Assembly (NCBI GenBank): GCA_015478655.1
Contig: JADMIJ010000046.1
Location: 1 to 33,463 of the forward strand
Direction: 5' to 3'
Length of the DNA stretch: 33,463 nt
Origin: Acidimicrobiales bacterium
GTDB lineage: Bacteria > Actinomycetota > Acidimicrobiia > Acidimicrobiales > RAAP-2
Part shown: one piece after another, positions 1,252 to 32,790 of the stretch
Numbering within the stretch: the first letter of the stretch is position 1
Layout of the letters: each line of letters opens with the position of its first letter
Made by a program: the position numbers and the translations under genes
The notes under the pieces: model-generated
Seen by the model: only the letters and a program-made list of their open reading frames with translations
Database searches by the model: none
What the model was told of the DNA's origin: nothing

Positions 1252-1592
1252 TGCAAGCTTTCGACCAACGCTGTCCGTTCTGCGGGTGCCCGGCCGACCA
1301 CCTTCACCATCCCACCGGGAGGGGTTCGGATGGCCGATACCACGATGCGTCTTTTGTCTGCCCTCTTTGTCGGCGCGAGCACATCGTGGAGCATCAGGGC
1401 TGGAACGTGGCCCACATCGGGGACGGATCCAAAGCAGATCACGCGGCCCTCCGTCTTCGTCGTACTGGCCACCTGCTGGTCCGGCTGGGTCAGCGCCATG
1501 GAACCAGTGTCGTGACCGTCCCGGCCATATTCATTCTCGGGCTGGGCCTGATGCTCCAGGACATTGCCGACGACCGGGAGCGGGGCCGATGA
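1251..1592 (+). CDS. HNH-like zinc-binding protein, 113 aa
   Basis: The N-terminal half has a CPFCGC pair (residues 8-13), then HLHHPTGRG, then VCPLCRREH. This is the CxxC...HH..GR...CxxC..H layout of small HNH or HNH-like zinc-finger proteins, so a nuclease or DNA-binding role is plausible. I cannot point to all catalytic residues: the central Asn of HNH is not evident. The C-terminal half is helical and hydrophobic (VTVPAIFILGLGLMLQDI). Start and stop overlap the neighbouring genes (TGATG upstream, ATGA downstream), placing it firmly in one operon with the polymerase-like gene that follows. Confidence 0.7.
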   Translation: MQAFDQRCPFCGCPADHLHHPTGRGSDGRYHDASFVCPLCRREHIVEHQGWNVAHIGDGSKADHAALRLRRTGHLLVRLGQRHGTSVVTVPAIFILGLGLMLQDIADDRERGR

Positions 1593-4500
1593 ACCCGAAA
1601 CGGCCCAACAACGAGAGTCGGCGGACGCGGGAGAGGCGGCAAGCAGAAGAGGCTGCTGCCCTGCGGATGGAATTGTCCACTCGTGGGGTCAATCTCCGGG
1701 GTTGGCCCGGTGGCAAGCCCATGGCAATCAAGCGACCACCCACCTACTCACCCCGTCTCGCGGAACGGGTCAGCCTGGTCATGGTGGCCGCAGCCGAGCT
1801 AGGCGCCATGCGGGAGACGTTTGGACTCGGGGCTTACCTCGTGATCGCTGGTCCATCGACATTGGACGCCGGGATCATTGTGTCTGACACCCTCGACGCC
1901 GAAGCACTCAAAGGAATAGAGACGTGGGCCAGGAACCATCGGGTTATCACCGCCGCGGGGTCACGTCGTTGGGCCGTGGTCACTGTCAGCCAGTTCTTCG
2001 ACCCTCGGCGTGGCACCTTTGTCCAACGGACCTACAGCGGCAGCGGATGGTTCATCGGTGCGGACCTCGGCCGGGTATTTGGGCTGACCGCCGAGCACGT
2101 CGTACCCCGGCGTGGTCGCAATGCTGGGTCGTGGGAGATCTACCCGCCCGGATGGGGTTACATAGGCCCAAAGCAGAACGTGCGCAAGGCCTCGCCTCAT
2201 CGTCCACCACTTCGGATCTCGTCCGGACGTACCGGGTGGCAAGTCGAGTTCGGCCCCGTAGAGCACGGGAACGGGAAGCAACGCAACGGCCAGTATTCCC
2301 GTGGGGACTTCCTCGACGTGCTCTCGCTCGCCGACTCCCAAGACGGGGACAGGGCGGCTGACTTCTCCCAGCACCGTGTGAATTTCGGACTCGCGCCTCA
2401 TTCCATGCCCATCGCCGTCCCCGTTACCGGCGAAGGAGCACAGCAGATGGCTGACGCGGTGGCAGCCGTCCACGAGCTGGCCCTGGTCCTGGACGAGAAA
2501 GCGGCTGATTGGTTCACTACGGCTCAGGACCGGGCCGAAGGTCGGGGACGGATCGACCTCTGTCGCACGCCGACCCCGGGCACTCTGGCGGCCCAGATTC
2601 CGGCGCGTTTCGGGGTCCGAGCACCAATGGCCACATTCGACCTGACCGAAGAGGAGCACCTGAGGTGGGCAGAGAGCTTCCACGGTGGCTGGACCGATGC
2701 ATGTCCCAAACTGCTCGGTACCCCGTTCCCGGCAGTGACGCTCGACGTGTCCTCCTGCTTCCCTCTCGTGGCCCACCTCATCGGCTGGTGGGAGGTGCTC
2801 TGTGCCGACGGGATCGGGCGGCAGAACAGGACCGACGCTCTGCGCCGGCTCTGCGAGAGATCGATCGCGGACCCGGCCGTGGTCCTTGACCCGGCTGTGT
2901 GGAAGCAGTTTGGCTGCTGTCTGGTGACGGTCCAACCGGATGGGGAGCCCTTCCCTGTCGAGGTCGAGGACAAGCACCGGCCCGACGGCCGGCTCGAAGT
3001 GGTCCCGCTCTATTCACCTGACCGCCCGATGCACTACTCGGCTCTTGACGTACTGGCCGCGGCGGTGCTCTCGGGGCAGGTGCCCGAGATCCTGTCAGCA
3101 ACGGCCTACCGACCGATCGGCCACCAAACCAGTCTGCGCCTTCGCTTGCCCATGCTCCCGGGGCTCACCCTCACGCCGGAGGATGACCCAGCGGTTGAGC
3201 TGGTGGCCCGGCGCCGGAATGCCAAAGCAGCCGGTGACATCGTGCTGGGCGCCGAGCTGCGGGTTGTGGTCAACGCCCTGACCTATGGCAACCTCTGCCG
3301 GTTTGATCGCGAGCTGAGCAAGGTGGGCCAGACCTGGGTACGACGTGAACGGCCCGGACCACTCAACTGCATGCCCATTGCCTCGTCGGTCACCGCCGGC
3401 TCGCACTTGCTCCTCGCCGTGCTCGACCGGATTGTGAGGGACAAGGGCGGTCTCGTTGCCTACCGGGCCAGCGACTCATCCATCGTCCCTTCCAGCCCCC
3501 TCGGGGGGGAACAGCCACTTACTGGTGGCGGGGTGATACACGCCCTGTCGTGGTCTGAGGTCGACAGCATTGTGGCCCCATTCGATGCTCTCTCACCCGA
3601 CCCCGAATGGACCGTATGGAAGGTCGACCGGGGAACGGAAACTGAACCAATGCAGGCCGTCATTTTCGGACCAAACCGTCATGCCGAGGTAGTCGGTGAT
3701 GAGGTGGTCGATCTGACCGAAGCCCAACTGGGAGGGGTCTATTCGGACCCACCGAGCATGAGGGGAAGAGACGGCAAGATTCGGGCCTGGTCCCTCCCTG
3801 CCGTGGCTCGTGAAGTTGCCTATGCCGTCGACCGCAACCAGGATCCAGACAAGGCCGTTCGGCCCGATGCTCTATGGGACGCGGGGTCGGTCTTGGCCTT
3901 CCCTGCCCTGCGCCGGCTCAGTGCCAGGACGCCCGAGATGGTGAGGCTCTTGCCGTCAGCGCTTGGGCCAAGGCCGGGCACTCGCTATGCGGAGGCCAGC
4001 GAAGACGAATGGAGCCTCTCATCATGCGGTCGCATCGTGGTCGCCTTCGACCCCGGCGGTGCGCTGGATGACTGGTCAAGCCTTGGTTGGGTCGACAAGC
4101 ACACCGGGGAGCCGGTCCGGGTCACCACCGACACATTGAACCGCAATGCCGTTGCCGTCGAGTCCCTCGACCGTCGGGCCATTCAGTGGTCCCGTCGGCC
4201 ATTGGGCGAGCCCATCGAGTCAGTCACCGTAAACGCCGATCTCCTGTCCCACCGTGGCCTTGTGTCTGGAGTCCTCGACGCCAATGGGGATGGGATTGGA
4301 GGCTCCGATCTGTGGAACCGGCGGGTCGTTTACGACGAGAGCAACGCTGCGGCCTTCGTCGTGGCCGAGGCTGACCGCCTCGGCCCATCAGCCTTCGCCG
4401 GTCGGTACGGGGTACCCATCAGCACGGCCGAGAAGCTGTCGGCAGGCAGGGCGCCGGGCCGGGGCACCGTCCACAAGGTGCTCGCTGCTGTCGGGCCGGA

Positions 4501-4774
4501 CGGCAATCGAGCATGTGCGCTCGACGGCTGCACCGAGCCGGTGTCCCGGACCAATGCCATCTTCTGCTGCAAGGCCCATCGGGACCGGGCATTCAGGCAG
4601 CGTCGGCAGGCCGAGCGGGAGAGACTGCTCAGTGCCCCCAAACGGCCACGGAAGGCAGCATCCGATCCGTTCGCCGGCCTTCCCCGATGCGTCCGGTGTG
4701 AGGCCGTCATGGCAGGCACCGCCGACCGCGGTGATGGCGTGTGCTTCTCCTGTGACGAGGAGGGGGTGGCATAG
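1589..4774 (+). CDS. Divergent family B DNA polymerase-like protein with C-terminal zinc fingers
   Basis: 1061 aa from the ATG at 1589, which overlaps the upstream TGA (ATGA); the frame is open further 5', but that part lies over two other coupled genes. Three polymerase motifs occur in the right order and spacing. Motif A is TLDVSSCFP (Asp386, compare DxxSLYP). Motif B is VVNALTYGN (Asn562-Tyr566-Gly567, compare NSxYG). Motif C is AYRASDSS (Asp629, compare YxDTDS), which keeps the essential second Asp but has Ala in place of the first. The N-terminal about 300 residues fit a decayed or divergent RNase H-like 3'-5' exonuclease (GWFIGADLGRVFGL; MADAVAAVHEL), though the exonuclease motifs are weak. 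After the palm comes a long C-terminal part, a helix-turn-helix-like stretch (FAGRYGVPISTAEKLSAGR), then CALDGC...FCCKAHRDRAFRQRR and a CVRC...CFSC zinc ribbon. It probably replicates the element, in the cytoplasm, together with the ATPase encoded next. The assignment rests on motifs I can see, not on a database match. Confidence 0.6.
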   Translation: MNPKRPNNESRRTRERRQAEEAAALRMELSTRGVNLRGWPGGKPMAIKRPPTYSPRLAERVSLVMVAAAELGAMRETFGLGAYLVIAGPSTLDAGIIVSDTLDAEALKGIETWARNHRVITAAGSRRWAVVTVSQFFDPRRGTFVQRTYSGSGWFIGADLGRVFGLTAEHVVPRRGRNAGSWEIYPPGWGYIGPKQNVRKASPHRPPLRISSGRTGWQVEFGPVEHGNGKQRNGQYSRGDFLDVLSLADSQDGDRAADFSQHRVNFGLAPHSMPIAVPVTGEGAQQMADAVAAVHELALVLDEKAADWFTTAQDRAEGRGRIDLCRTPTPGTLAAQIPARFGVRAPMATFDLTEEEHLRWAESFHGGWTDACPKLLGTPFPAVTLDVSSCFPLVAHLIGWWEVLCADGIGRQNRTDALRRLCERSIADPAVVLDPAVWKQFGCCLVTVQPDGEPFPVEVEDKHRPDGRLEVVPLYSPDRPMHYSALDVLAAAVLSGQVPEILSATAYRPIGHQTSLRLRLPMLPGLTLTPEDDPAVELVARRRNAKAAGDIVLGAELRVVVNALTYGNLCRFDRELSKVGQTWVRRERPGPLNCMPIASSVTAGSHLLLAVLDRIVRDKGGLVAYRASDSSIVPSSPLGGEQPLTGGGVIHALSWSEVDSIVAPFDALSPDPEWTVWKVDRGTETEPMQAVIFGPNRHAEVVGDEVVDLTEAQLGGVYSDPPSMRGRDGKIRAWSLPAVAREVAYAVDRNQDPDKAVRPDALWDAGSVLAFPALRRLSARTPEMVRLLPSALGPRPGTRYAEASEDEWSLSSCGRIVVAFDPGGALDDWSSLGWVDKHTGEPVRVTTDTLNRNAVAVESLDRRAIQWSRRPLGEPIESVTVNADLLSHRGLVSGVLDANGDGIGGSDLWNRRVVYDESNAAAFVVAEADRLGPSAFAGRYGVPISTAEKLSAGRAPGRGTVHKVLAAVGPDGNRACALDGCTEPVSRTNAIFCCKAHRDRAFRQRRQAERERLLSAPKRPRKAASDPFAGLPRCVRCEAVMAGTADRGDGVCFSCDEEGVA

Positions 4775-5926
4775 ATGACCGTGGCCCCTCCCGAGGCGAT
4801 CGCCCTCAATGACGTGGTGACCGCTCATCAGGAGACTCTCTGGATGCCAGACCCCAGCACCCTTCTGGTCACCCTTGCCACCGTGGTCGGAAATCGGATG
4901 GCCGGTGATCCCATCTGGCTGATGCTCATTGGCGCTCCATCCTCTGGCAAGACCGAGATCGTGGAGTCCTTCGCAGAACTGCCCGAGGTGCACTGGCTCA
5001 GCAGCACGACCAAGGCCGGACTACTGAGTGGGGCGGTCGGCGAGGGTGGCACCGGTGGCCTGCTGTGCACGATCGGCGATCGCGGGCTGCTCATCATCAA
5101 GGACTTCACCACCATCCTGTCCGAACATTCATCAACCCGGAATGAGGTGCTGGCCATATTTCGGGAGATGTTCGAAGGCAAGTTCGACAGGGCTGTCGGG
5201 ACCGGCGGCGGCGTTGTCCTGAGATGGCGGGGCCACGTCGGGTGTATCGCCTGCACTACCCAGGCCGTCGACCAGGTGAGCATGGCCGCGTTCGGTGAGC
5301 GGTGGGTACGGTGGCGACTCCCAGCCACCAGCCACGATGACCGGTTCCTTGCCGGGCTGACCGCCCTGGAAAACCAGGGCAAACAGCAAGACCAGCGTGC
5401 CAAGCGGCAACGGGTAGTGGCCGACTTTCTCGCCAACCTGGCTATTCCTGACCTGCCCCCGCCACTCACGTCACGCGAGCAGGAGCGGCTTGGCCTATTG
5501 GCCGACCTCGGTACCCGGTGCCGCAGTGAGGTGACCCGAGATGGGGGCAGCGGCGATCGGATCGAACTGATCCCCGACCCCGAGGAACTGCCCCGACTCA
5601 TCTCGGAGCTGGCCCAATTGTCCGCGGGACTCACGGTAATCGGCGTGGGCGACGAGGACCGTTGGCGGCTTCTGGTGGGCTGCGCGTTGGGAGGCATGGA
5701 GAGCCTACGCCGGCAGGCCGTCGACATACTTCTCGGCGCCCCCAATGGCCATACCACTGCAACGATCGCCGCACGGGCCGGGTTGCCACGAACCTCTATG
5801 CACCGGCACCTGGAGAACCTCACCGCATTGGGTGTGCTCGACAGGATCGACGGCCCGCCGGAGATTTGGTTCACGTCAGACTGGCTGCGGGACCGCTGGA
5901 CGGCCGTAAGTGGGGAGGGGCTGTGA
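4775..5926 (+). CDS. P-loop ATPase with C-terminal winged helix
   Basis: 383 aa, starting directly after the polymerase stop codon. Walker A is GAPSSGKT (Gly53 to Thr60); the Walker B strand is GLLIIKDF (Asp110), followed by a sensor-like segment VGCIACTTQAVD and an arginine-containing stretch FGERWVRWRLP. The last about 70 residues (TIAARAGLPRTSMHRHLENLTALGVLDRI) are a clear winged helix-turn-helix. The layout resembles AAA-type replication initiators or helicase loaders of phages and plasmids, so it may load or assist the adjacent polymerase. A transcriptional role through the winged helix is an alternative. Membership of a named family was not determined. Confidence 0.7.
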   Translation: MTVAPPEAIALNDVVTAHQETLWMPDPSTLLVTLATVVGNRMAGDPIWLMLIGAPSSGKTEIVESFAELPEVHWLSSTTKAGLLSGAVGEGGTGGLLCTIGDRGLLIIKDFTTILSEHSSTRNEVLAIFREMFEGKFDRAVGTGGGVVLRWRGHVGCIACTTQAVDQVSMAAFGERWVRWRLPATSHDDRFLAGLTALENQGKQQDQRAKRQRVVADFLANLAIPDLPPPLTSREQERLGLLADLGTRCRSEVTRDGGSGDRIELIPDPEELPRLISELAQLSAGLTVIGVGDEDRWRLLVGCALGGMESLRRQAVDILLGAPNGHTTATIAARAGLPRTSMHRHLENLTALGVLDRIDGPPEIWFTSDWLRDRWTAVSGEGL

Positions 5927-6282
5927 TGCCCGAGCGGCCCGCGGACAAACACAGACTGACTAAGCCCACGATCCGTCGACGGCGCCGATTCCCCGCCCCC
6001 TTTGACCGGTCGCTCTCGCTTGAATACCAAAAGGCCTATGACGTGACCCCGGAGGCCGCCGATTTACTTGTGGCCATATGGCAGAGCGACCCTGAGGACC
6101 TGGCCATGGCGGCCCTGGTGCTGACGGCCACCACGGACGCCTTGGAGGCCGGAGCGGGAACCGCCGATCAGAAGGACATAGAGGCCAGGGTCGACGCCCT
6201 ACGCCGGAAGACGGATAACCCAAGTGGTCTCGACCTATGGCGAGCCATCGCCCGGGATGTTGTCCTGAGGGAGAAGGACTGA
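5926..6282 (+). CDS. Hypothetical protein, 118 aa
   Basis: The ATG overlaps the ATPase stop (TGATG), which fixes the start and places it in the same operon. The N-terminus is very basic (TIRRRRRFPAPFDRSLS). The middle and C-terminus are helical: YDVTPEAADLLVAIWQSDPEDLAMAALVLTA..., then IEARVDALRRKTDNPSGLDLWRAIARD. No catalytic or metal motif is visible and I do not recognise the family. A small adaptor or DNA-associated accessory of the replication module is possible but is only inferred from position. Confidence 0.6.
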   Translation: MPERPADKHRLTKPTIRRRRRFPAPFDRSLSLEYQKAYDVTPEAADLLVAIWQSDPEDLAMAALVLTATTDALEAGAGTADQKDIEARVDALRRKTDNPSGLDLWRAIARDVVLREKD

Positions 6283-6286
6283 TCCT

Positions 6287-6595
6287 ATGGGGACCATCCG
6301 CCACAGGTCACCCGAGAACCCTGCCACCCGGGCCAGTACCGACACGAAGGCTTCACTATGCACGATGGCCGGATGGTTGGAGGGGAAAACAGGGGTGGTC
6401 GGCTCTGACATAGGGACCTCTCAAGGGCGGGGGAGCGGAGGTAATCGTACCTCCGGCCAAAGGCGGACCAACAGGGTATGTCGGGGCATTCGATCAAAGC
6501 TCCGGAACATAGAGCGTGCCCTGAGGATGCCTCACCGATTCCTCGGCCACTTCCGCTCCTGCGACGGTCGGTGGACGGTACGGGAGAAGGGATGA
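6287..6595 (+). CDS. Doubtful ORF, 102 aa
   Basis: An open frame four bases after the previous stop, ending just before the GTG of the next gene. Composition is low in hydrophobic residues and rich in Arg, Gly, Ser and Thr, with no recognisable motif, and the frame contains a perfect 8-bp hairpin (6436-6455). It may be a real fast-evolving gene, because spacing in this operon is tight, or simply an intercistronic region. I lean slightly towards non-coding. Confidence 0.3.
   Translation: MGTIRHRSPENPATRASTDTKASLCTMAGWLEGKTGVVGSDIGTSQGRGSGGNRTSGQRRTNRVCRGIRSKLRNIERALRMPHRFLGHFRSCDGRWTVREKG
6436..6455. other. Perfect hairpin, 8-bp stem
   Basis: CGGAGGTA (6436-6443), loop ATCG, TACCTCCG (6448-6455). 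There is no T-run after it, so it is not a typical intrinsic terminator. It lies between the 118-aa gene and the zinc-ribbon gene and could be an RNA processing or stabilising element within the operon transcript. Confidence 0.4.
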
Positions 6596-6599
6596 GCCG

Positions 6600-7259
6600 G
6601 TGAGGTACTACCCCGTGGAGTGTCCGAAGTGCGGGCACGCTTGGCAATCTCGATCCGAAAGCGGCCGTACTCAATGCCCGCGTCCGCCCACCGGTTGCGG
6701 AAGTCGGGTCTATGTCCCCCTTGCCGTCAGACAGGCGGCAGCCGAGGGCATGGAGAGGCGGCAATTGGCCCCCTCCTGCCAACCGAGCCCAAAGCCGGCC
6801 CCTGAGAGCCCTGTGGCGTCTGTAGCGTCCACTCATAGCCCCCCAACCGCTCGCGGGACCCTGCCTGACAGGACTGGTGGAATCACTTACATAGATGCCG
6901 CCTCCCGGGCCGTGAACCTTGTTGCCGCGTTCATGGGGATGGGGTCACCAGACCCGCCGGAAACCGAACCGGAGATACAGCCGAATCCGATTGCACCGTC
7001 GGCGCCCCCTTCACCGCCGGTCCCGACACAGGTAACCCCTCAGCCGGAACCGGCCGACTGGAGCCAGCCCCATCCCTATGTCTTGGAGGTGAGTTGCGGC
7101 TGCCCATGCTGGTGGCACAACACGGACCCACCAGCCGTGGTCCAATGCCCTCGACATGGTCCGGTGACGGTTCGCAGCATGCACTCGTCGGATGCCGGCT
7201 CAGCGCCATCGGTGCCATTGCCGTCCTCGATTTCTGAGACTCCGGACTACTTGGTATGA
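6600..7259 (+). CDS. Zinc-ribbon, proline-rich protein, 219 aa
   Basis: GTG start at 6600. The N-terminal 40 residues are a zinc ribbon: CPKCGHAW, then QCPRPPTGCGSRVYVPLAVR. A long Pro/Ala/Ser/Gln-rich linker follows (about residues 50-150), and a second cysteine/histidine cluster near the C-terminus (VSCGCPCWWHN...VQCPRHGPV). Such ribbons usually bind nucleic acid or scaffold proteins. It is the last clear gene of the polymerase operon; the following about 190 bp hold no gene I can support. Function unknown; a DNA- or RNA-binding accessory protein is the most reasonable reading. Confidence 0.6.
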   Translation: MRYYPVECPKCGHAWQSRSESGRTQCPRPPTGCGSRVYVPLAVRQAAAEGMERRQLAPSCQPSPKPAPESPVASVASTHSPPTARGTLPDRTGGITYIDAASRAVNLVAAFMGMGSPDPPETEPEIQPNPIAPSAPPSPPVPTQVTPQPEPADWSQPHPYVLEVSCGCPCWWHNTDPPAVVQCPRHGPVTVRSMHSSDAGSAPSVPLPSSISETPDYLV

Positions 7260-7447
7260 CGCTCACCCAAGGCGGACTGAACGGATGTACCCGCAGCACA
7301 TCTCGGGTGTGACGGAACCTGGCGGAACAATCCAGGAACCCCGCGACTAGGGCAACCAATGGGGATCCCGCGCACTCAGGTTAAGCCCGTCCTTCCGATT
7401 GTCGATAACAACTTCCAGTACATCTCCGGACCGCTTGCGAGGCAACG

Positions 7448-7663
7448 ATGGGCGAATATACGAAGAGCCGACTGACGATAGACATCTATCCGGATATTTC
7501 GAAGAGATCGACGAAGTTGCTGGCCGAACTCGTTCGACAAGTAGCCGACCAGATCGAAAACCACAGCAATTTGGATCGGCACACGGGTCCCGTAGTGGAA
7601 CTGACAGGGATTGGAGACAACGTTGGACGCTGGAGGTGGACCCCACACAAGATTCGCTGGTAA
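7448..7663 (+). CDS. Small hypothetical protein, 71 aa
   Basis: ATG preceded by a GAGG purine stretch. The protein has a regular beta-strand-then-helix start (SRLTIDIYPDISKRSTKLLAELVRQVADQIENH) and a conserved-looking tail, PVVELTGIGDNVGRWRW. This is more protein-like than the competing frames at the same place (a 109-aa frame on the plus strand and about 90-aa frames on the minus strand). No family recognised. It sits alone between the replication operon and the DUF4145 gene. Confidence 0.45.
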   Translation: MGEYTKSRLTIDIYPDISKRSTKLLAELVRQVADQIENHSNLDRHTGPVVELTGIGDNVGRWRWTPHKIRW

Positions 7664-7814
7664 CGCATCCGTCAGGATTGGGCTTGAAGCAGTTTCAACA
7701 ACATAGAAGAAAGCCGCCCTCTCAGTAGAGGAATTCTCGGCTCTGTGGGTGGTGCCAACCGTCCACCTCCGTGCTTCTGTGGCTCTAGAAGTGATTCCGT
7801 TTGGTCTGGCCTTC

Positions 7815-7820
7815 TATGAT
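7815..7820 (+). promoter_or_regulatory. -10 box (TATGAT) for the DUF4145 gene, leaderless
   Basis: TATGAT lies exactly 6 bases before the ATG at 7827, the spacing expected when transcription begins at the start codon. A GTGATT at 7791-7796, 18 bp upstream, could be a weak -35. It argues for the ATG at 7827 over the upstream GTG at 7749. Confidence 0.5.
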
Positions 7821-7826
7821 TTGCTC

Positions 7827-8531
7827 ATGGCTGCGGAAATCATGGGGGTACCCGACCGATACAGGCGCTACGACGCTGAGGAGCCAATCGACGCGTGTCC
7901 GAACTGCGGCCAGTCATCCCGGCTGCGGCGTCATGACCGGCGGGTTGTGTGGCCAAAAATCACCCACAACCTGGCCCCTCTGTTCGATCCGTATGCCATG
8001 GAGGAAGTGTGGGAGTGCCTGCTTTGTAAGAAGTCCATGATTATTGTGCGGACTTTCGAGGCGGGTGAGAACCAGGAGCGTGAACCGGTCGCAGCCAGCA
8101 TCCTGTATCCCGTTCTTCCCCCAAAGACTCTGCAAGATGAAGCCCCCGCTGCTGTGACGTCACTGTACCGGGAGGCATCGGTTGCGGAGAACGCTGGGGC
8201 GTTGCGTGGGGCAGCCGCCCTCTATCGTGCTGCCGTCGAGCAACTCCTTACCGACCTGGGTATCCCAGATGGAAAATTGGGGAGACGCATCGAGCAACTC
8301 GCAGACCGGGGTGTCGATGTTGACGTCGTGACCTCATTTCATGAGGCGAGGTTGCTCGGCAACTGGAGCCTCCATGATGGGGTGGAGTTCTCGCCCGAGG
8401 AAGTAAGTGACGTAGCCGAACTCATTGTTGAAGCCACCGAAGAGTTGTATGTCATCCCGGCGAAGCGTGAAGAGATGCGGGCCGCACGTGCTGCTCGCCG
8501 TACCAAGGACACTCCATCCACATCTGGTTAG
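7827..8531 (+). CDS. DUF4145 domain protein with N-terminal zinc ribbon
   Basis: 234 aa from the ATG at 7827; the frame also has a GTG at 7749, but a TATGAT box 6 bases before this ATG favours it. The N-terminal third has ACPNCGQSSRLRRHDRR and, about 50 residues on, WECLLCKKS, a split zinc ribbon. The C-terminal half is helical: SLYREASVAENAGALRGAAALYRAAVEQLL, then LADRGVDVDVVTSFHEARLLGNWSLHDG. This matches the DUF4145 pattern as I know it. DUF4145 occurs next to restriction and other defence genes and in mobile islands, but its biochemical role is not established. Here it lies between the replication module and the tRNA boundary. Confidence 0.7.
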   Translation: MAAEIMGVPDRYRRYDAEEPIDACPNCGQSSRLRRHDRRVVWPKITHNLAPLFDPYAMEEVWECLLCKKSMIIVRTFEAGENQEREPVAASILYPVLPPKTLQDEAPAAVTSLYREASVAENAGALRGAAALYRAAVEQLLTDLGIPDGKLGRRIEQLADRGVDVDVVTSFHEARLLGNWSLHDGVEFSPEEVSDVAELIVEATEELYVIPAKREEMRAARAARRTKDTPSTSG

Positions 8532-8542
8532 CAGGCAATTCG

Positions 8543-8980
8543 GTGCGAAGACTATTGGGAGCTGCAGGCATCGGGGTGGCACTTTTGGCGGTGGGGTGTT
8601 CATCGGCGTCGGCCAATGCGGTTTCTGAAGTCCGGGCAGCATGCGGCCACGGGTTACCAGGGGCCACGGGCGGCAATGGCAACGAAACCTGGGGCGAGAT
8701 TCTGGCGACCTACCAGGCGGCGCAGATGGATTCAGCAAAGGCGGTTGCAGCGGACCCTCGATGGGACTCGCTCAACAGTGCGTATGGCACCTTGATTTCG
8801 GCATGGGGCGCACTGGTAGCGATAACCGGACCTGATATTACGAACAACGACAGCTCCACGAACGTTGTGGCTCAGGCCGACGCCGGTCAGATTGCTGCTT
8901 CTCGGGCACAGTGGTCCGGTCCGGCTGGACAGGCTGAGGCGACAGTGCGGTCTCAATGCGCTATCGCAAAGGCGTCATAG
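8543..8980 (+). CDS. Small lipoprotein, 145 aa
   Basis: GTG start, 11 bases after the DUF4145 gene. The first 19 residues are a typical lipoprotein signal: MRRLLGAAGIGVALLAVGC, with lipobox LAVGC, so the mature protein would be anchored to the outer face of the cytoplasmic membrane at the cysteine. The rest (about 125 residues) is Ala/Gly/Ser/Gln-rich and helical (ATYQAAQMDSAKAVAADPRWDSLNSAYGTLISAWG), with two further cysteines (RAACGHG and SQCAIAK) that may form a disulfide. Function unknown; it is the last gene before the tRNA-Arg boundary. Confidence 0.7.
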   Translation: MRRLLGAAGIGVALLAVGCSSASANAVSEVRAACGHGLPGATGGNGNETWGEILATYQAAQMDSAKAVAADPRWDSLNSAYGTLISAWGALVAITGPDITNNDSSTNVVAQADAGQIAASRAQWSGPAGQAEATVRSQCAIAKAS

Positions 8981-9066
8981 GTGTGACGTTAGTCACCCCA
9001 CACACACCAACCCACTAATCCGCCGCGCGTCGACTCTGTAGCCCCCTCCCTCTAAACGCCCGCTGG

Positions 9067-9096
9067 CCCCTGGCCCCTGGTGCCCCGGCCCTCCCC
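9067..9096 (-). other. G-quadruplex-prone G-tract cluster
   Basis: The plus strand has five C-tracts (67-70, 74-77, 83-86, 89-91, 93-96 in the 9000s) separated by 1-5 bases, giving five G-tracts on the minus strand. The region 8981-9221 holds no gene I can support; this tract and a strongly pyrimidine-rich plus strand are its main features. It lies about 130 bases past the 3' end of tRNA-Arg, at the suspected element boundary. Confidence 0.45.
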
Positions 9097-9221
9097 GCTT
9101 CCGGTGGCCCTCCCGCCGGTCTCCCCTGGCCGGTCGCCCCGGCCCGTCGGGGCCTCTCCGTGCGCGGCGGTTTCCTGCCGCCCCTGCCTGTCGTCTCCCT
9201 CTCTCCCCAAGACCCAATTTT

Positions 9222-9296
9222 TGGTGCCCTCGGCAGGACTCGAACCTGCGCACACGGCTCCGGAGGCCGATGCTCTATCCGCTGAGCTACGAGGGC
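9222..9296 (-). tRNA. tRNA-Arg (anticodon CCG), CCA encoded
   Basis: Read on the minus strand: acceptor GCCCTCG pairs with CGAGGGC, followed by discriminator A and an encoded CCA. The D arm is GCTC...GAGC, the anticodon loop CTCCGGA (anticodon CCG, decoding CGG), and the T arm GCAGG-TTCGAGT-CCTGC. The 27-43 pair at the top of the anticodon stem is a T-T mismatch; all other stems are intact. The variable loop is short. It probably serves as the attachment site for the element to its left. Confidence 0.93.
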
Positions 9297-26118: not shown

Positions 26119-26350
26119 ACGGGTGCCTCCACTACTCTATGCGTTAATTGATAAGCGAAGCGTAGCCTGTCCGCGGGCTAATTGTCACCTGGGAGCCTTG
26201 TCGACCGATACCGGTTTCGCCTTGAGAACATCCTGCTCACGCAGCTTTCACGCCATGGCAACAGCGGGTTCGATGGTTCGGTAGGGGGTGCGGATCGCAC
26301 CCACCCGGCTGGTCGCCGACCCGGTCGGCGTGGGCGTGAGTACCGGTGAG

Positions 26351-26356
26351 TACCGT
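26351..26356 (+). promoter_or_regulatory. -10 box (TACCGT) of the acyl-CoA dehydrogenase gene
   Basis: TACCGT lies 6 bases before the ATG at 26363, consistent with a leaderless transcript and supporting this start over the GTG 75 bases upstream. The rest of the divergent region 26119-26362 shows no further element. Confidence 0.4.
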
Positions 26357-26362
26357 GTGGCT

Positions 26363-27514
26363 ATGAATCCACCCGGCTTCGGCCTCACCGAGACCCACCG
26401 GCAGTTCCGCGACACGCTCCGCAGGTTCGCCGAGGACCGGATCGCCCCCAACGCCGTGCAGGCCGATCGAGATGCCACCTTCCCCCAGAAGTCCTTTGAC
26501 GCCTGCGTCGAGCTCGAGCTCCCCGCCCTGGGCATCCCCGTCGAGTACGGAGGAGCCGGCGCCGACATGGTGACCCAGGCCATCATGGCCGAAGAGCTGG
26601 CCAGGGTCTGCTCCTCTACCTCCCTCACGCTTCTGATCTCCAAGCTCGGGATGTCGCCGGTGATGAACTGGGGCTCCGAGGACTTGAAGCGCAAGTACCT
26701 GCCACGGGTCGCATCGGGCGAGCGACAGGCCAGCTATTGCCTGTCCGAAGCCGACGCGGGCAGCGACATTGCCGCCATGCGGGCCCGAGCTGTCCGGCAG
26801 GGTGACCACTACCTCCTCTCGGGGACCAAGTACTGGGTCACCAATGCGGGCATCTCGGACACCTACACGGTGTTCGCGGTGACCGACCCGGCCGCCGGTC
26901 GCCGTGGCATCAGCTGCTTTGTGGTCGAGGCGGATTGGGGTGTCGAGGTGGCTCCCCACGAGGACAAGATGGGTCTCCGGGGCAGCCCTACGGCGGCGGT
27001 GACGTTCGACGAGGTGATAGTTCCTGCTTCCAACCTGGTCGGGGAGGAGGGGATGGGAATGACCATCGCCCTGCATGCACTGGACCGGAGCCGGCCGACG
27101 ATCGGTGCCCAGGCGGTGGGGATCGCGCAGGGTGCCATCGACTACGCCGGGGGCTACATGAAAGAGCGTCAGGCATTCGGCAAGGCCATCGCCGACATGC
27201 AGGGTCTGCGATTCATGCTGGCTGAGATGGCCATGCGCACCGAGGCGGCACGCACCCTCATTTACCGCGCCTGTTCCCTGATCGACAGCGACGGCCCCGA
27301 AGGAGAACTCACCATGATCGGTGCGATGGCCAAGTGCTTCGCCTCGGACACCGCCATGGCCGTCACCACCGATGCCGTCCAGTTGCTGGGCGGATACGGA
27401 TTCACCAAGGACTTCCCCGTCGAGCGCTTCATGCGCGACGCCAAGATCACCCAGATCTACGAGGGCACCAACCAGATCCAGCGGGTGGTCATCGCAAAGA
27501 AGCTGCTCGAATAG
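26363..27514 (+). CDS. Acyl-CoA dehydrogenase
   Basis: FAD-dependent enzyme that introduces the alpha-beta double bond into acyl-CoA esters, passing electrons to ETF. 383 aa, the typical length. N-terminal helical domain (LTETHRQFRDTLRRFAEDRIAPNA), the flavin-binding SYCLSEADAGSDIAAMRARA and KYWVTNAGISDTYTVFAV, then MGLRGSPTAAVTFDEVIVPASNLVG and the C-terminal QLLGGYGFTKDFPVERFMRDAKITQIYEGTNQIQ with the catalytic glutamate at position 367 (YEGT). Chain-length specificity (short-chain or branched-chain likely) cannot be fixed from sequence alone. The integrase gene begins 86 bp after its stop, so this 3' end may lie at an integration junction. Confidence 0.93.
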   Translation: MNPPGFGLTETHRQFRDTLRRFAEDRIAPNAVQADRDATFPQKSFDACVELELPALGIPVEYGGAGADMVTQAIMAEELARVCSSTSLTLLISKLGMSPVMNWGSEDLKRKYLPRVASGERQASYCLSEADAGSDIAAMRARAVRQGDHYLLSGTKYWVTNAGISDTYTVFAVTDPAAGRRGISCFVVEADWGVEVAPHEDKMGLRGSPTAAVTFDEVIVPASNLVGEEGMGMTIALHALDRSRPTIGAQAVGIAQGAIDYAGGYMKERQAFGKAIADMQGLRFMLAEMAMRTEAARTLIYRACSLIDSDGPEGELTMIGAMAKCFASDTAMAVTTDAVQLLGGYGFTKDFPVERFMRDAKITQIYEGTNQIQRVVIAKKLLE

Positions 27515-27587
27515 GGTTTCTGGCTTCGCTGGTCGGGGCCTCGAAGGCCAGTTTGGGCCTCGCATCCCTACTTTATCCCTACTGGGC

Positions 27588-27600: not shown

Positions 27601-28769
27601 GTGGCCACCATCCGAGAGAGGTCCCCGGGAGTCTGGGAAGTGAGGGCGTTCACCGGCAGTGATGGCCAGGGTCGCCCCACCCAGGTGAGCCGGACCGTCC
27701 GGGGCGGGAAGCGCGAGGCGGAACGGGTGGCTGCCGAACTGACTCTGCGTCGGGGGAGCGAGGCCGGCAAGGTCACCGTGTCGGAGCTGCTCGACCTTTG
27801 GATGGAGCAGCACACGCCCTCCTGGTCGCCGTCGACTTTCGAGAACCACAAGAGCGGGTAGCCCAGGTGAAGGCCGATCCCATCGCCAAGGTCCGCCTGG
27901 CCAAGCTGTCGGCGGTGGACGTGGACCGCTGGCACGCCCGACTGGCCCGGAACGGATCCGGCGACGGGTCGATCCGCAACCAGCACCAGGTACTCCGGGC
28001 CGCCGTGACCCAGGCAGTCCGGTGGGGCTGGGTCATGACCAACGTGGTCGCCGTGGCCCAACTGGGCAAACGGAAGCAGGTACCACGGGGAGCGCTCGGC
28101 GAAGATGAGGTCCGGAGAGTCCTTGCCGCATCTGAGGAGCTGGCCGTCGCGCTGGAGGTCGAGCCGGCCGCACCGATCGCGCTCCGCCTGGCCGCCATCA
28201 CCGGGGCCCGTCGGTCGGAGCTGGCGGCGCTGCGATGGGTGGACCTGGACGGCGACCGACTGACCATCGACTCCAGTGTGGCCATCATTCGCCATGGAAC
28301 GCCTGAGGAGCGGAAGATCCCGACCCTGCGGGACGATCCGACCAAGACAGCCAACCGCAGGACAGTCACGCTGGATGCGACCACAGCCGAGGCGTTGCAG
28401 CGATTGAAGCGGCACCAACACAACCTCGGACCCTGGATCCTGAACGTGGGGGACCGGCCGGTGAATCCGGAGCGGATCGGGGCGTGGTGGCGCCGCGCTC
28501 GGGACCGGGCCGGTGTGGACGGTCGGTGGCGGCTCCACGATCTTCGGCACTGGTCGGCGACGATGTCGATCTCCCGGGGGCATGACATCCGGACCGTGGC
28601 CAACCGTCTCGGCCATGCCAATCCGGCCATGACGCTCCGGGTGTACGCCCATGCCGTCGAGTCCGCTGACCGTCCGGTGGCCGCCATGCTGGGCAACATC
28701 CTGGACGAGGCGGAGCCGACGGATGCCCCCATTCTGGCCATCATCGAGCCTGCCGGACCGGCCACGTAG
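27601..28769 (+). pseudogene. Tyrosine recombinase/integrase, one-base frameshift
   Basis: Phage-type site-specific integrase. The first 86 codons from the GTG at 27601 give the N-terminal arm-binding and start of the SAM-like core-binding domain (ATIRERSPGVWEVRAFTGSD... VSELLDLWMEQHTPSWSPSTFENHKS) and then hit TAG at 27859-27861. The rest continues in another frame: ERVAQVKADP..., VDRWHARLARNGS, then the catalytic domain with ITGARRSELAALRW (Arg), RLHDLRHWSAT (HxxR) and LGHANPAMTLRVYAH (His/Tyr nucleophile). Restoring one C near 27855 (AGCGGG to AGCCGGG) joins the two as HKSRVAQV. So either the gene is dead, or the base was lost in sequencing/assembly. An ATG at 27798 could still yield the catalytic part alone. 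Otherwise full length, about 390 aa. Confidence 0.85.
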
Positions 28770-28797: not shown

Positions 28798-28968
28798 TCA
28801 GTGGATCGGGGTGCCCAGCAGCTCTTCCATGGCCACTCTCGGGATCACGATGCGCCGCCCCAGTCTGATGGCGGGCAGTTCACCCCTGGCCACGAGCTCG
28901 TAGGCGAGCCCTCGTGAGATGTTCAGCAGGTACGCCACCTCGTCGACCGTTAGGACGAGTCGGTCGTT
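28798..28968 (-). CDS. Excisionase-like HTH protein, start not identified
   Basis: Reads NDRLVLTVDEVAYLLNISRGLAY..., then RGELPAIRLGRRIVIPRVAMEELLGTPIH, a typical MerR/HTH_17-type DNA-binding domain of the excisionase family found beside integrases. The frame is open for about 120 codons upstream (to 29157) but contains no ATG, GTG or TTG before the domain; the only in-frame GTG (28936-28938) lies inside the first helix. A GAAGGAG purine stretch precedes by about 20 bases. Either a rare start codon is used or the 5' end is damaged. It is convergent with the integrase (28-bp gap); xis genes more often lie upstream of int on the same strand. Confidence 0.6.
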   Translation of the reverse strand, partial: NDRLVLTVDEVAYLLNISRGLAYELVARGELPAIRLGRRIVIPRVAMEELLGTPIH

Positions 28969-29153
28969 AGTTGAGGAGGCTCTCTCCTTCTGATTGCCCT
29001 CCTCGGCCCGTGGCGCAGTACCGAGGGGCGGCTCCTCGACCTTCCGGACGAGCGAGGGTGCTGCTGGTCTGCGGGTTGATGAATGGTGGTATGGCGGTGT
29101 TGTCTCATGTCGGGCTCCGTTCAGTTGGTGTGATCTCGTCCATCGTCCACACC

Positions 29154-29295
29154 AACGTCACCCTCAACGTCACCCTCAACGTCACCCTCCGATATCTCGC
29201 CAGCAGCACTAACGTCACCCTCAAGCTCCAGCGGTCTGACGGCAATGTCACCCTCCCAGCTCAGAGTCCTGTCGGTGTCACCGAGGAGGCGTCAC
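29154..29295 (+). repeat. Left array of AACGTCAC sites
   Basis: Core octamers AACGTCAC, usually followed by CCTC, start at 29154, 29166, 29178 and 29211, with AATGTCAC at 29244 and degenerate copies GGTGTCAC (29274) and GGCGTCAC (29288). Intervals are 12, 12, 33, 33 and 30 bp. All are on the plus strand. The first three form a perfect 12-bp tandem. Near-helical spacing suggests a protein-binding array more than a coding or slippage repeat. Confidence 0.8.
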
Positions 29296-29324
29296 GGGCC
29301 ATGTGGCCATCGTCTGAGCCCACA

Positions 29325-29365
29325 TACAGCACTCCCCCCGGCATCGAGCCGGGGGGAGTGCTGTA
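29325..29365. other. Perfect 18-bp hairpin
   Basis: TACAGCACTCCCCCCGGC (29325-29342), loop ATCGA, and the exact reverse complement (29348-29365). It is the strongest inverted repeat in the window. There is no T-run on either side, so it is not a standard intrinsic terminator. Confidence 0.75.
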
Positions 29366-29383
29366 CCCCGACCCGGTTCGGCG

Positions 29384-29420
29384 GGCCACCGGACGGGGGC
29401 GCACGTCCGCCCGTGTGGCC
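29384..29420. other. Hairpin with bulge
   Basis: GGCCACCGGACG (29384-29395), loop GGGGCGCA, CGTCCG (29404-29409), 5-nt bulge, GTGGCC (29415-29420). Two stacked 6-bp stems, all Watson-Crick. Confidence 0.5.
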
Positions 29421-29467
29421 ACTCACGACGGTTCCGGGAGCTCACATCGTTCCGGGGATCGAGTGGA

Positions 29468-29503
29468 GGCGCTCAGGCGGGCATCGAGCCCGCCGTGGGC
29501 GCC
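29468..29503. other. Hairpin with ATCGA loop
   Basis: GGCGGGC (29476-29482), loop ATCGA, GCCCGCC (29488-29494), extended by an outer 5-bp stem GGCGC/GCGCC (29468-29472 with 29499-29503) across an internal loop. The loop equals that of the hairpin at 29325-29365. Confidence 0.5.
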
Positions 29504-29573
29504 TGGGTGACTCTGCGGATCTGCTTCGCCGGAGGGGATCATCCATGTCCACACACCTGCATCATCGGACGCG

Positions 29574-29696
29574 AACGTCACCCCCTCACGAGACTCGATT
29601 TCGCGCGGTGGCAGAGTCCGCCCGAAGGCGTCGGACTCGTGAGTGCAACTGTGTGGACATTGAATGTCCCGATCAGGCGGAGCCGAGGGTGACGTT
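29574..29696. repeat. Inner inverted pair of AACGTCAC sites
   Basis: AACGTCAC on the plus strand at 29574-29581 and GTGACGTT (minus-strand orientation) at 29689-29696. Between them CTCACGAG (29585-29592) pairs with CTCGTGAG (29636-29643), giving an 8-bp stem around 43 nt. The switch from plus- to minus-oriented sites occurs here, so this is the dyad centre of the whole arrangement. Confidence 0.6.
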
Positions 29697-29711
29697 CTCA
29701 TCGGCGACCAC

Positions 29712-29730
29712 GGCGGGCTCAATGCCCGCC
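29712..29730. other. Hairpin with the same stem as 29476-29494
   Basis: GGCGGGC (29712-29718), loop TCAAT, GCCCGCC (29724-29730). Stem identical to the hairpin at 29476-29494, different loop. Confidence 0.5.
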
Positions 29731-29848
29731 ATGGCGCCGCTTCGTGAGGGAAGCCGATGTGACAGAGGAGATCAGTTCATGCGCGAGCGCTCCACAGGTG
29801 GCCACCAGAGCTTTGCCTTCGGGTCCTTGGGGCAGCGGTTCGCCAACG

Positions 29849-29865
29849 CCGGCCAGAATGGCCGG
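29849..29865. other. Short hairpin, 6-bp stem, 5-nt loop
   Basis: CCGGCC, loop AGAAT, GGCCGG. Together with the previous hairpins it makes several with 5-nt loops within about 540 bp. No convincing gene covers this stretch; frames on both strands are low in protein-like features. Confidence 0.4.
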
Positions 29866-30135
29866 AGAGGCGACGGCGGACCGGTGCCCGGCCCCGTGGG
29901 GGCCAACTCCGGCAATGGGGCCCTTGCAATCGTGTTCGGCCGCCTCCGGTGGAGTTCGTGGGCCTGAGGCAATGAGCCATCCAGCCGTCGCCTGCTGGCT
30001 TCCCAGCGGCGGAGGCGGACCCAAGGCTACGAGAAGCCCAGAACCGGGATCAGATCTGGGGGTAATGGCACAGGACCGGGGACTGTCGCTCCCGTGGGAA
30101 CCTTGGACGGCCGATATTCCGAGGCGGTCGTGAGG

Positions 30136-30295
30136 GTGACGTTCGGGGTGACGTTGCATGAGTGGCGATGGTCGTGAGGGTGACGTTCGTCCCACACCCA
30201 CAGAGGTGAGGGTGACGTTGGAGGCGTCGTGACGGTCATGAAGGTGACGTTCGTCCCATCCCGACACGGGCCAGGGTGACGTTCGGGGTGACTGT
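30136..30295 (-). repeat. Right array of GTGACGTT sites
   Basis: GTGACGTT octamers, mostly within GAGGGTGACGTT, start at 30136, 30148, 30180, 30212, 30244 and 30276, with a degenerate GTGACTGT at 30288. Intervals are 12, 32, 32, 32, 32 and 12 bp. All are opposite in orientation to the left array. Two units share GTGACGTTCGTCCCA beyond the core. Such exact periodicity with otherwise differing spacer sequence points to selected binding sites. Confidence 0.8.
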
Positions 30296-30396: not shown

Positions 30397-31146
30397 TTAT
30401 GGGATGCCTTCGCTTCTCAGGCCGCCTTCGTCAGCCAACGCCATTTCTGCTCTGGCGATCGGACTCTCCGGCCTGAACCCTTTCCATGCGCAGTAGATGC
30501 CGAGGAATGCTTCCCACACGATTTCCGGGAGTGCGAGCAGGGAAGAAGGTCCGGAACCGTTCTTGTAGACACCAAATAGGGTCAGCACGAAAGAAAGAAT
30601 GAGTAAGGAGCCACCGACGAGGCCAACGATTGCCATGCGAGGCGGCACGAGTGCCGATCTGTACATGAGGTAGCCCAGCATCAAGCCGTTCCCGATTCCC
30701 GCAACGAGTCCGGGCCCCCACTGGAAGGCCCATTCGTAGGTGTTCACCAGCGAACTGCCGGAAGCACCGATTGCGGTGGCGTGAACGCCGGTAGCTGAGG
30801 TCAGCGAGTTCGCCACGCCGACGACCGAGATGATGCTCATGAGGCCGATCGCGGCAAATACCGACTCCATGATGCGGGCGGTGACGTAACCGAGCGAAAC
30901 GGTTTCGCTCTGCCGCCTGACGAGCGGGTAGATCACCACTGCGGTCGCGATCTGCGTGAAGATGAGACCGAACTCCAGAATGGCCCCAACCTTCAGGCTG
31001 GTGTTGGAGGTCGCCCCGGGGATGAAATGCATGTCGGTCCAGCTCGCTCCAGTGCCATGCACGAAGAGAATCCGAGCTGGGATGCTGGTAATGAACGTGC
31101 CGATGAAGAACCAGCCGAAGATCCGCCCTGTCCGCTTAACATCCAT
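30397..31146 (-). CDS. DUF4386 family membrane protein
   Basis: 249 aa, about six membrane segments: GRIFGWFFIGTFITSIPARILF, LKVGAILEFGLIFTQIATAVVIYPLV, ARIMESVFAAIGLMSIISVVGVAN, FQWGPGLVAGIGNGLMLGYLMY, MAIVGLVGGSLLILSFVLTLFGVY and LLALPEIVWEAFLGIYCAW. The conserved glutamate in RIMESVF and the final WEAFLGIYC segment fit DUF4386, a family of unknown function. A GGGAGGA ribosome site precedes the ATG. It lies just beyond the right array. Codon and base usage are somewhat less GC-rich than in the core genes, in keeping with accessory DNA. Confidence 0.8.
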   Translation of the reverse strand: MDVKRTGRIFGWFFIGTFITSIPARILFVHGTGASWTDMHFIPGATSNTSLKVGAILEFGLIFTQIATAVVIYPLVRRQSETVSLGYVTARIMESVFAAIGLMSIISVVGVANSLTSATGVHATAIGASGSSLVNTYEWAFQWGPGLVAGIGNGLMLGYLMYRSALVPPRMAIVGLVGGSLLILSFVLTLFGVYKNGSGPSSLLALPEIVWEAFLGIYCAWKGFRPESPIARAEMALADEGGLRSEGIP

Positions 31147-31213: not shown

Positions 31214-32215
31214 TCAGTGCAGGGCCGGCTCCAGGTGCTCCGTCTCCGACAGATCCGCCGCCGGAGGGGCCGTTCCCCGGGAGGCGGCCCGCTCGATCCA
31301 GATGTCGAGCACGAGCAGGCTGAGGTTCGACACGACCGCCGCACCGATGATCGTCGTGATCAACGCTATGAGCCCGTTGGTCACGTGGAAACCGAGTGCG
31401 GCTCCGACAACCGCACCGACAGCCGCGGCAATCATGCCCTTGGCCCGCATCGCCTTCGGCGTGTCGGTGCAGACCCAGCCGGCGTAGACCCCGAGCCAGA
31501 TCGGCACCGCGACCGAGACCACTGACAGCAGCTGGTCGGGGAGCGCCCGGCTCGGCCAGAACCGCAGTACCAACAGTTCGCCGAGGAACCATCCGCCGAG
31601 TCCGAACACGATCGGACCGGCCGAACGGATCCATGCGCCCGTCTTGCGGCCGGTACCGCCTCGGCGGCGGATCCGGATCGCCAACACCACGAGCCAGATC
31701 ACTGCCAACAAGGCGAAGCCGATCATAAACCCAAGGATGTCCTTGGCAATCGCTGCCTGTGATTGTGGCGTGGCGAAGCTGACAACGTTCGGGGTGTAGC
31801 GGGACGTGTCGACCTGGCCGGTGGCGTAGAACGTGGTCAGTAACTGCGTGCTGGCGCTCGGCTCGTAGGCGTCGAAGTCGTCCACGTGCCCGAGCCCGGG
31901 CAGGATGACCTGATGCCCGTTGGAAAGGTGCGGCAGCAGCTCCTTCGTGGCGTTCTGGGCCGGTGTCTGGAAGTCGAGCGTCCCGCCGATGAGCAGCGTC
32001 GGGACGCTCGAGTTCTGCACGCTGGTGTACTGGTTCTCACCCGGGTTGGCCGGCCAGGCGTGAGCCATGCCTCCCGCCCCCCACAAGAACTCCCCGAGGG
32101 GATTGCCGATGATCGAGCCCCGGTCCGCGCCGGAGCTGAAGTAGCGCTCGACGGGCTGCGCGTCGGCCATCCCGATGCTTGCAAACTCGCCCCAGGTGAA
32201 CGACTGGGGGAGGAC
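31214..32215 (-). pseudogene. Alpha/beta hydrolase (TAP-like) with membrane tail, N-terminus lost
   Basis: The kept part starts at about WLVLPQSFTWGEFASIG and includes the C-terminal half of a TAP-like alpha/beta hydrolase: VPTLLIGGTLDFQTPAQNAT (acid residue region) and GHQVILPGLGHVDDF (catalytic His). The nucleophile-elbow half is missing. A hydrophobic C-terminal domain with about five membrane segments follows (FMIGFALLAVIWLVVLAIRI, PIVFGLGGWFLGELLVL, LLSVVSVAVPIWLGVYAGWV and others). At about 32215-32230 the sequence switches to an IS110 transposase in another frame. The open frame runs on without a stop to 32578, so a 454-aa chimera is formally possible, but its first about 120 residues are an out-of-frame reading of the transposase. 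Confidence 0.7.
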
Positions 32216-32790
32216 GAGCCAACCGGTGGCGGATGGTCTCGGCCGGGGAGGACGGCTCGAACACTCCGAGCAGCCCGTCGGCGTCCGAAGCGTTGAGTTC
32301 CTTGGAGATTCCCCCTGCAGCCAGCGAGGCGATGTGCGCATGCAGTCGGCACACCAGCTTGGTGCGCAGGCTCCCGATGTCCTCGTTGCGCTTGGCCAGC
32401 AGACGCAATACATCGGCATGATCAGCCGACTGCACTGACCGGAGCCCCGGGGACCTGAGGGCAGCAATGGCCACCGACCGGGCGTCGTTGGGATCGTTCT
32501 TGTCCGACTTCCCCGTCCCGAGCACCCGCACCCTCGAGGCCAGAGTGGCAGGCACGTCGAGCACCTGCTCACCGGCATCGACGAGCTGTTGGGCCAGCAA
32601 ATAGCCGAGACCCCGGGCGGACTCGATGGCCCACGTTCGCTTTCGGAACGGCTCGGCCCACCCCAACAACTGGCCAGTTTGGTGTTTTGTTGCCCGGGAC
32701 GGTGACGGTGGCGAGCTCGGCCTCGTCACAGCCGATGGCCACCGCAGTGTGGGTGGCTTTGTGTGGATCGATGCCGATGATGACGTTCAT
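32216..32790 (-). pseudogene. IS110-family transposase, frameshifted and C-terminally truncated
   Basis: Begins MNVIIGIDPHKATHTAVAI (first Asp of the DEDD RuvC-like site), continues in a second frame with RATKHQTGQLLGWAEPFRKRTWAIESARGLGYLLAQ (Glu) and GKSDKNDPNDARSVAIAAL (the Asp-Asp part). This is the N-terminal half of an IS110 recombinase. Removing one C from the CCCGGG run at about 32693-32698 joins the frames as TVRATKHQ. The match stops at about SSPAETIRHRLA, so the C-terminal serine-recombinase-like (Tnp_20) half is gone and hydrolase sequence follows. Deletion between an IS110 insertion and the host gene would explain the join. Not functional. Confidence 0.8.

Follow-up and report, generated by a model that had tools for sequence, protein, structure and literature searches.

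Inverted oriT-like modules between helically phased repeat arrays in a probable relaxase-less integrated element of Acidimicrobiales

The window, a 33,463-nucleotide stretch of an Acidimicrobiales genome (contig C325), contains a block of about 1.1 kb in which two opposed arrays of a short repeat enclose a pair of inverted oriT-like modules. Our analysis indicates that this block is probably the control and transfer region of an integrative mobilizable element (IME) without a relaxase that is integrated at the 3' terminus of an acyl-CoA dehydrogenase gene and would use the regulator and the relaxase of a helper integrative conjugative element (ICE). At the sequence level, this reading is grounded in the array, the homology of the core to oriT, the sites common to ICE transfer genes and the att core. 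The following features were located in the window:

27448-27515, plus strand: attL core, the last 68 bp of the acyl-CoA dehydrogenase gene (26288-27514)
27601-28769, plus strand: tyrosine integrase (PF00589, E = 1.3e-20, 27798-28766), GTG start at 27601 set by homology with the C21 integrase
28798-28980, minus strand: xis, an excisionase-like HTH_17 gene (PF12728, E = 7e-13)
29140-29148, minus strand: GGACGATGG box, directed towards xis and placed at +6 relative to the inner tandem sites
29154-29255, plus strand: left array, five sites at spacings of 12/12/33/33, facing xis
29325-29365, no strand assigned: terminator-like hairpin, a perfect 18-bp inverted repeat with a loop of 5, in a region 83% identical in C219
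29464-29590, plus strand: oriT-like module M1, with a TCCACAC core at 29548 and a 12-mer site at 29574
29637-29741, minus strand: inverted oriT-like module M2, with the core starting at 29657 and a 12-mer site at 29685-29696
30132-30295, minus strand: right array, six sites at spacings of 12/32/32/32/32 plus one degenerate site, facing right
30397-31146, minus strand: cargo, DUF4386 protein (PF14329, E = 3e-30)
31214-32170, minus strand: cargo, part of a TAP-like hydrolase (PF08386, E = 6e-6)

The sequence-only reading had described the repeat as an octamer. An exact-match scan of the window found it at 29154, 29166, 29178, 29211 and 29574 on the plus strand and at 29689, 30136, 30148, 30180, 30212, 30244 and 30276 on the minus strand, so that all positions given earlier stand except 29244, which reads AATGTCAC and has one mismatch. 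The window holds 15 exact octamers against 0.94 expected (none of 100 shuffles reached 15), and 12 of them lie within 29154-30283. The octamer repeat is real, but its true unit is longer, the 12-mer AACGTCACCCT(C/G). With at most one mismatch, this 12-mer has 101 matches in its own genome (16 for the reversed control), and 22 of the 26 exact copies there fall on five contigs (eight on C325, six on C219, five on C239, two on C21 and one on C92; four elsewhere). Other array loci of this genome are found on C219 (111-1454) and C239 (2457-3276), with remnants on C21 and C308, and the gene order int, xis, array is common to the window, C219, C239 and C21. Viral contigs gave no match to the tandem 12-mer. 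A coding repeat (NVTL) was also considered as the source of the arrays; the left array taken alone is in frame, but it cannot account for both arrays together because the spacings in the right array (32) and elsewhere (20, 44 and 52) are not multiples of three.

The earlier impression that the intervals lie near whole helical turns was borne out in 20 stretches, where same-strand spacings of 10-70 bp fell at 12 (37 of 88), 13, 20-23, 32-35, 43-44, 52-54 and 61-67 bp. These spacings follow a period of about 10.5 bp (R = 0.82), as high as none of 500 random sets, in stretches that are partly orthologous and include a few 21-bp spacings inside relaxase genes. After removal of the 12-bp spacings, still none of 500 random sets reached the observed value, and on the 17 distinct spacing values alone five of 500 did. 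We take the array DNA to be read from one face of the helix, and the idea that a core is flanked on either side by helically phased sites of a single protein appears well founded.

Tandem pairs of sites were then compared across 29 stretches (40 pairs, 359,398 bases). GGA follows the inner site at exactly 6 bp in 23 of the 40 pairs (background 0.02), a count made on the same pairs in which the box had first been spotted, many of them orthologous and not independent. Seven boxed pairs face a relaxase gene, at 57 bp before the start in the six measurable loci (five as called, plus bog564), the seventh being G008:C105, whose start is not clear. Four boxed pairs face the first gene of a T4SS operon (at 60, 61 and 61 bp, and at 157 bp from the called start), four have xis within about 180 bp (the window, C219, G018:C103 and G012:C36), six lie on the int side at a longer or not fixed range (G037, C239, G004:C78, G007, G009 and G054:C9), and the remaining two are in C308 and G068. 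Among the 17 pairs without GGA, 15 are directed at a lipoprotein/Tad operon or are neighbours of the gene for the ribbon-helix-helix-like (RHH) protein described below; the others are that of the window's right array, which lacks GGA at +6 and has no called gene ahead of it on its own strand, and one inside a relaxase gene. As a separate observation, a gene on the array's int side in G009:C56 (L063 2441-3832) resembles, by eye, a serine recombinase.

The left array fits well as an operator of xis, and sites of the putative helper regulator are shared by the DNA before excision genes. The suggestion that the array is the cis-region of the neighbouring int/xis element is supported; the sites recur at xis, relaxase and T4SS promoters. 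The array might instead be a segregation or relaxosome site of the StbA/ParB type, where a protein would coat the repeats by oriT to anchor or segregate the circle and promoter control would be secondary, a reading that we consider rather unlikely. It draws on R388, a TrwC plasmid for which the cited passages describe two sets of five 9-bp direct repeats beside the stb operon, which adjoins oriT, bound by StbA and with copies in other promoters (PMC3098194), on the staphylococcal RHH relaxosome factor SmpO, described as determining oriT specificity (PMC8136818), and on a ParB-like gene just before the oriT of the ICE (PF02195, E = 4e-12). However, tandem sites keep a fixed distance from the GGA box and from start codons (57 bp for the relaxase, 60-61 bp for three first genes of T4SS operons), which points to transcription, and some 15 kb separate oriT from the sites at the T4SS promoter.

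The core suggests a transfer function. M1 matches the DNA upstream of the relaxase gene on C239 (C239:31166-31273; 74% identity, 110 columns) and is also matched in G037 (71% over 107) and, over 25 bp only, in G018. Similarly, M2 shares 93% identity (99 columns) with a C219 module and 76% (89 columns) with the C239 DNA upstream of the relaxase gene. On the putative nicked strand the order from 5' to 3' is hairpin, about 8 nt, and GTGT/GG, and by analogy with F TraI the nicks are predicted on the minus strand between 29551 and 29550 in M1 and on the plus strand between 29654 and 29655 in M2. The Acidimicrobiales modules resemble the F TraI substrate in this order of hairpin, spacer and GTGT/GG; the cited passages give that substrate as GCAAAAACTTGTTTTTGC-GTGGGGTGT/GGT, a 49-mer with 27 nt before the nick (PMC5422253).

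A stem after the core with a score of at least 4 was found in all 11 ICE copies and in 7 of 10 IME copies (random, 12%), many of the ICE copies being orthologous and hence not independent. The IME copies below this score are M1, one C219 copy and one G012 copy; the M1 hairpin has one mismatch on the top strand and a G-T pair on the other strand. ICE stems differ in sequence (GCATC/GATGC, GCACTC/GAGTGC and GCAC/GTGC), and DNA folding favours another pairing in three ICE copies (G004:C165, G008:C53 and G008:C105). The features by which a MOBF oriT is recognised, namely a hairpin 5' of the nick, a GTGT/GG-like site and a nearby TrwC gene, are all present in the ICE copies as read from their sequence, the helper oriT itself being predicted.

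These homologies bear on the comparison with Tn7/Mu-type ends or inverted iterons that had been drawn from the sequence alone. If the block were a replication origin with inverted iterons, or the ends of a non-autonomous transposon, opposed direct repeats flanking a non-coding core would be expected, as is the case, and TGTCCACA resembles an actinobacterial DnaA box. However, the core consists of two oriT-like modules with homology to the DNA preceding the TrwC relaxase gene of an ICE in the same genome, and the border found is not the array but the att core beyond int, 1.6 kb outside it. No Rep protein was found among the ICE and element proteins scanned, which cover part of the genes. We regard both the origin and the transposon as very improbable.

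The candidate helper is found on C239 of the same genome, which on its gene content is an ICE. It contains an integrase, an HTH_17 excisionase, an array, a T2SSE (Tad-like) ATPase (E = 7e-24), an SSB (4e-33), the ParB-like gene mentioned above, a TrwC (MOBF) relaxase with an AAA_30 helicase (E = 5e-76), a coupling protein of the T4SS (T4SS-DNA_transf, 2e-22) and, only just reaching the cut-off (25.9 vs 25.8 bits), a P-loop protein of VirB4/TraG type; three proteins of the T4SS operon gave no family above cut-off. The 12-mer sites stand before the relaxase gene (31348 and 31360), before the T4SS operon (46892, 46904 and 46956) and on the int/xis side, and four more, at 32568, 33366, 33780 and 33801, fall inside the relaxase gene and were discounted as coding. 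At all ten relaxase loci counted, 174-178 bp separate the core CCACAC-N3-TGCA from the start of the relaxase gene downstream; an array site occupies -78 in nine loci and -66 in six. This count excludes the incomplete relaxase gene in G008:C105 (preceded by a core and a site pair, start not clear), the G012:C11 fragment without a start, five more distant relatives and the C167 and C115 matches. Seven relaxase loci with upstream DNA have one core each, a count that degenerate copies would escape. Two more TrwC matches were detected in the own genome, at C167:11406-12185 (L163, E = 7e-63) and, partial, at C115:9062-9223 (L164, 6e-5). They are possibly other conjugative elements or remnants, and possibly other helpers, so C239 need not be the helper.

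If the block controls and enables the transfer of a relaxase-less IME, the arrays would be operators for the transfer regulator of the helper ICE, the left one serving xis. The ICE regulator, once made, would occupy the helically phased sites and turn excision on. The TrwC relaxase of the ICE would nick one of the two opposed oriT copies in the excised circle and pilot one strand through the T4SS of the ICE. Within this reading, we infer that the regulator activates and does not repress, where the nick falls, which protein the regulator is, the target of the right array and that transfer takes place.

StbA-type proteins are not known to be RHH proteins. A candidate regulator of RHH-like type is encoded between the ICE arrays by an 83-codon gene (C239 2726-2974). 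Its match to RHH_5 is below the Pfam cut-off (E = 7e-4; 19.7 vs 26 bits). Among five sequences, pN/pS is 0.24 in frame and 0.09 in the C-terminal domain part, against 1.1 and 2.5 in the other frames, and the gene is under purifying selection. It is present in 9 of 172 family genomes. A tandem pair was found in 9 of 61 family genomes, eight of which carry the RHH-like gene, as do none of the 52 others, a co-occurrence with some circularity, since the gene lies within the array. G012, G036 and G037 have a close relaxase and no RHH match, and G007, G009 and G016 have the RHH-like gene and no relaxase match at E<=1e-50; all genomes are draft MAGs, and their incompleteness may cause this mismatch. 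The monomer model (pLDDT 73) has two helices and no strand, and a Foldseek search with it listed Arc, CopG and ParG among the matches, all at E>1. Against PDB sequences the protein gave three matches, all to the gamma-tubulin complex at E 0.15 or worse. The regulator of the 12-mer may be this RHH-like protein.

Inverted oriT pairs were found at four places in 3 of 172 family genomes (the window, C219, G018:C103 and G012:C36; 0 for the reversed control), and same-strand core pairs at equal gap in none of the 172. A third core is present in C219 and in G012:C36, in neither of which all three are on one strand (same-strand cores at 768 and 1073, minus, in C219 and at 8027 and 8194, plus, in G012). 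In the stretches read, none of the four elements had a relaxase called next to it, and a whole-genome search with the TrwC family gave no match on C325, past whose end lies the right end of the window element. G018 has both an ICE (C164) and a twin-oriT element (C103), with 30 bp of core identical. The far side of G018:C103 and of G012:C36 has lone sites only. An order-wide search of 397 genomes, a sample with one other genome of the same genus, found twin oriTs in the own genome only. G107:C252 has an integrase (73%) and xis (83% over 59 aa) like those of the window, together with degenerate sites and a single oriT core, and it also adjoins the acyl-CoA dehydrogenase gene. The cargo of G107:C252 (L121 1-7109) is phage defence: an HmaA-like helicase (E 1e-189), an HmaB-like methylase (E 9e-117) and a GmrSD_N protein.

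The integrases of the four elements are about 30% identical, the exception being G018/G012 (58%), and they adjoin tRNA-Val, tRNA-Lys and tRNA-Glu in C219, G018:C103 and G012:C36, respectively, and the acyl-CoA dehydrogenase gene in the window. Because the integrases are so divergent and lie beside different genes, the block travels apart from the integrase, and the presence of inverted oriT pairs beside different integrases at four places argues against both attP arms and transposon ends. If the array were the arm-type part of attP, its ligands would be Xis and the tyrosine integrase encoded next to it. Short direct repeats can serve as arm sites of Int or as Xis sites, and in the window, C219, C239 and C21 the array is indeed found past int and xis. 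Nevertheless, the att core is on the opposite side of int (27448-27515), the same sites precede relaxase and T4SS genes, and one motif accompanies integrases of about 30% identity with different neighbour genes, which makes an attP arm highly unlikely.

Islands that sense a helper and mimic its oriT are already known (in the cited passages of PMC5704250 and PMC8409611). MGIVflInd1-type islands mimic the oriT of SXT/R391 ICEs, whose regulator SetCD triggers their excision, and, like the window element, they are described with a tyrosine integrase and RDF, an oriT related to the helper's and no conjugation protein (PMC5704250). Their helper relaxase is MobH, whereas that in Acidimicrobiales is TrwC/MOBF, and the inverted oriT pair with a helically phased array is a feature of the window element in this comparison. 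SGI1 is similar in that the activator AcaCD of its IncC helper acts via sites that precede the excision gene as well as further genes of the island, but by the cited account it has its own mobilisation genes, mpsAB, and the regulator type differs (PMC8409611). Staphylococcal mimics of the pWBG749 family are likewise non-conjugative carriers of multiple oriTs, often of different specificity, with an RHH specificity factor (PMC4652767, PMC8136818); two oriTs are described as invariably on opposite strands and three as never all on one (PMC4652767). Unlike the window element, they are plasmids and not integrated, their relaxase is different, and a long repeat array is not mentioned in the passages cited (PMC4652767, PMC8136818). 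Similarly, R388 is a TrwC plasmid with repeat sets (stbDRs) by oriT and in other promoters, but these are 9-bp repeats with two-nucleotide spacers and a StbA-type protein, as far as the cited text describes them (PMC3098194). The present case differs in phylum, in the MOBF helper, in the inverted oriT pair within an integrated element and in the long phased array. Among the open-access matches listed, judged by title, none concerned a comparable element in Acidimicrobiia.

Tentatively, and with more doubt than confidence, we propose that relaxase-less IMEs of Acidimicrobiales carry two or three oriT mimics distributed over both strands, with differing hairpins that might serve TrwC ICEs of different specificity, and that they sense the transfer state of the ICE via a long phased array bound by a small RHH-like regulator. 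Hairpins of the types GCATC/GATGC and GCACT(C) are present in three of the four twin-oriT elements. Hairpin type was tried as a marker of relaxase clade and rejected; dual specificity is put forward as a hypothesis because ten-sequence trees did not cleanly split the two hairpin types. If true, the multi-oriT, array-sensing reading would describe an actinobacterial counterpart of MGI/SXT and SGI1/IncC built from other parts. The IME reading itself, if right, would provide a sequence signature for finding hitchhikers and helpers in uncultured bog and palsa Acidimicrobiales. Furthermore, the staphylococcal rule of paired mimics on opposite strands, as given in the cited passages (PMC4652767), is also met in another phylum (4 inverted vs 0 same-strand, 172 genomes), and relaxase-mediated deletion as the cause of this rule becomes testable.

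The att core has a second copy in the own genome (C92:6648-6715, 93%), without the rest of the gene. It is also repeated on the contig of the gene in G008, G004 and G003, and as a shorter repeat in G007 and G009, with differing intervening content. Elements of different content use the same site at the 3' end of the acyl-CoA dehydrogenase gene (window 26288-27515), which looks like an insertion hotspot in the genus. The window element has its own integrase, excisionase and att site. Its integrase is frameshifted near 27852, where two tblastn pieces in different frames meet, and its xis frame has no ATG, GTG or TTG before the HTH domain, the first being a GTG at 28938 inside it; either the window copy is decaying or the draft assembly contains errors. 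The cargo also includes IS110-type transposase-like fragments (32037-32790, by eye).

By the second att copy, C92 encodes a nucleotidyltransferase and its partner (1470-2503, L016; PDC-M05A/B matches), a pair that resembles toxin-antitoxin systems, and two 12-mer sites lie about 80 bp away on the opposite side of the att core. The contig starts of C21 (L012 1-57) and C325 (window 3-61) have 57 bp in common (97%), possibly a repeat at an assembly break. At the other end of the window, positions 1-9221 hold non-core genes up to the 3' end of a tRNA-Arg gene (9222-9296, minus strand), including a methyltransferase, a 1017-aa protein without a Pfam match, an HTH_IclR protein and a DUF4145 protein with a PD-T7-4 defence match (E 6.5e-12), and this region may be another integrated element.
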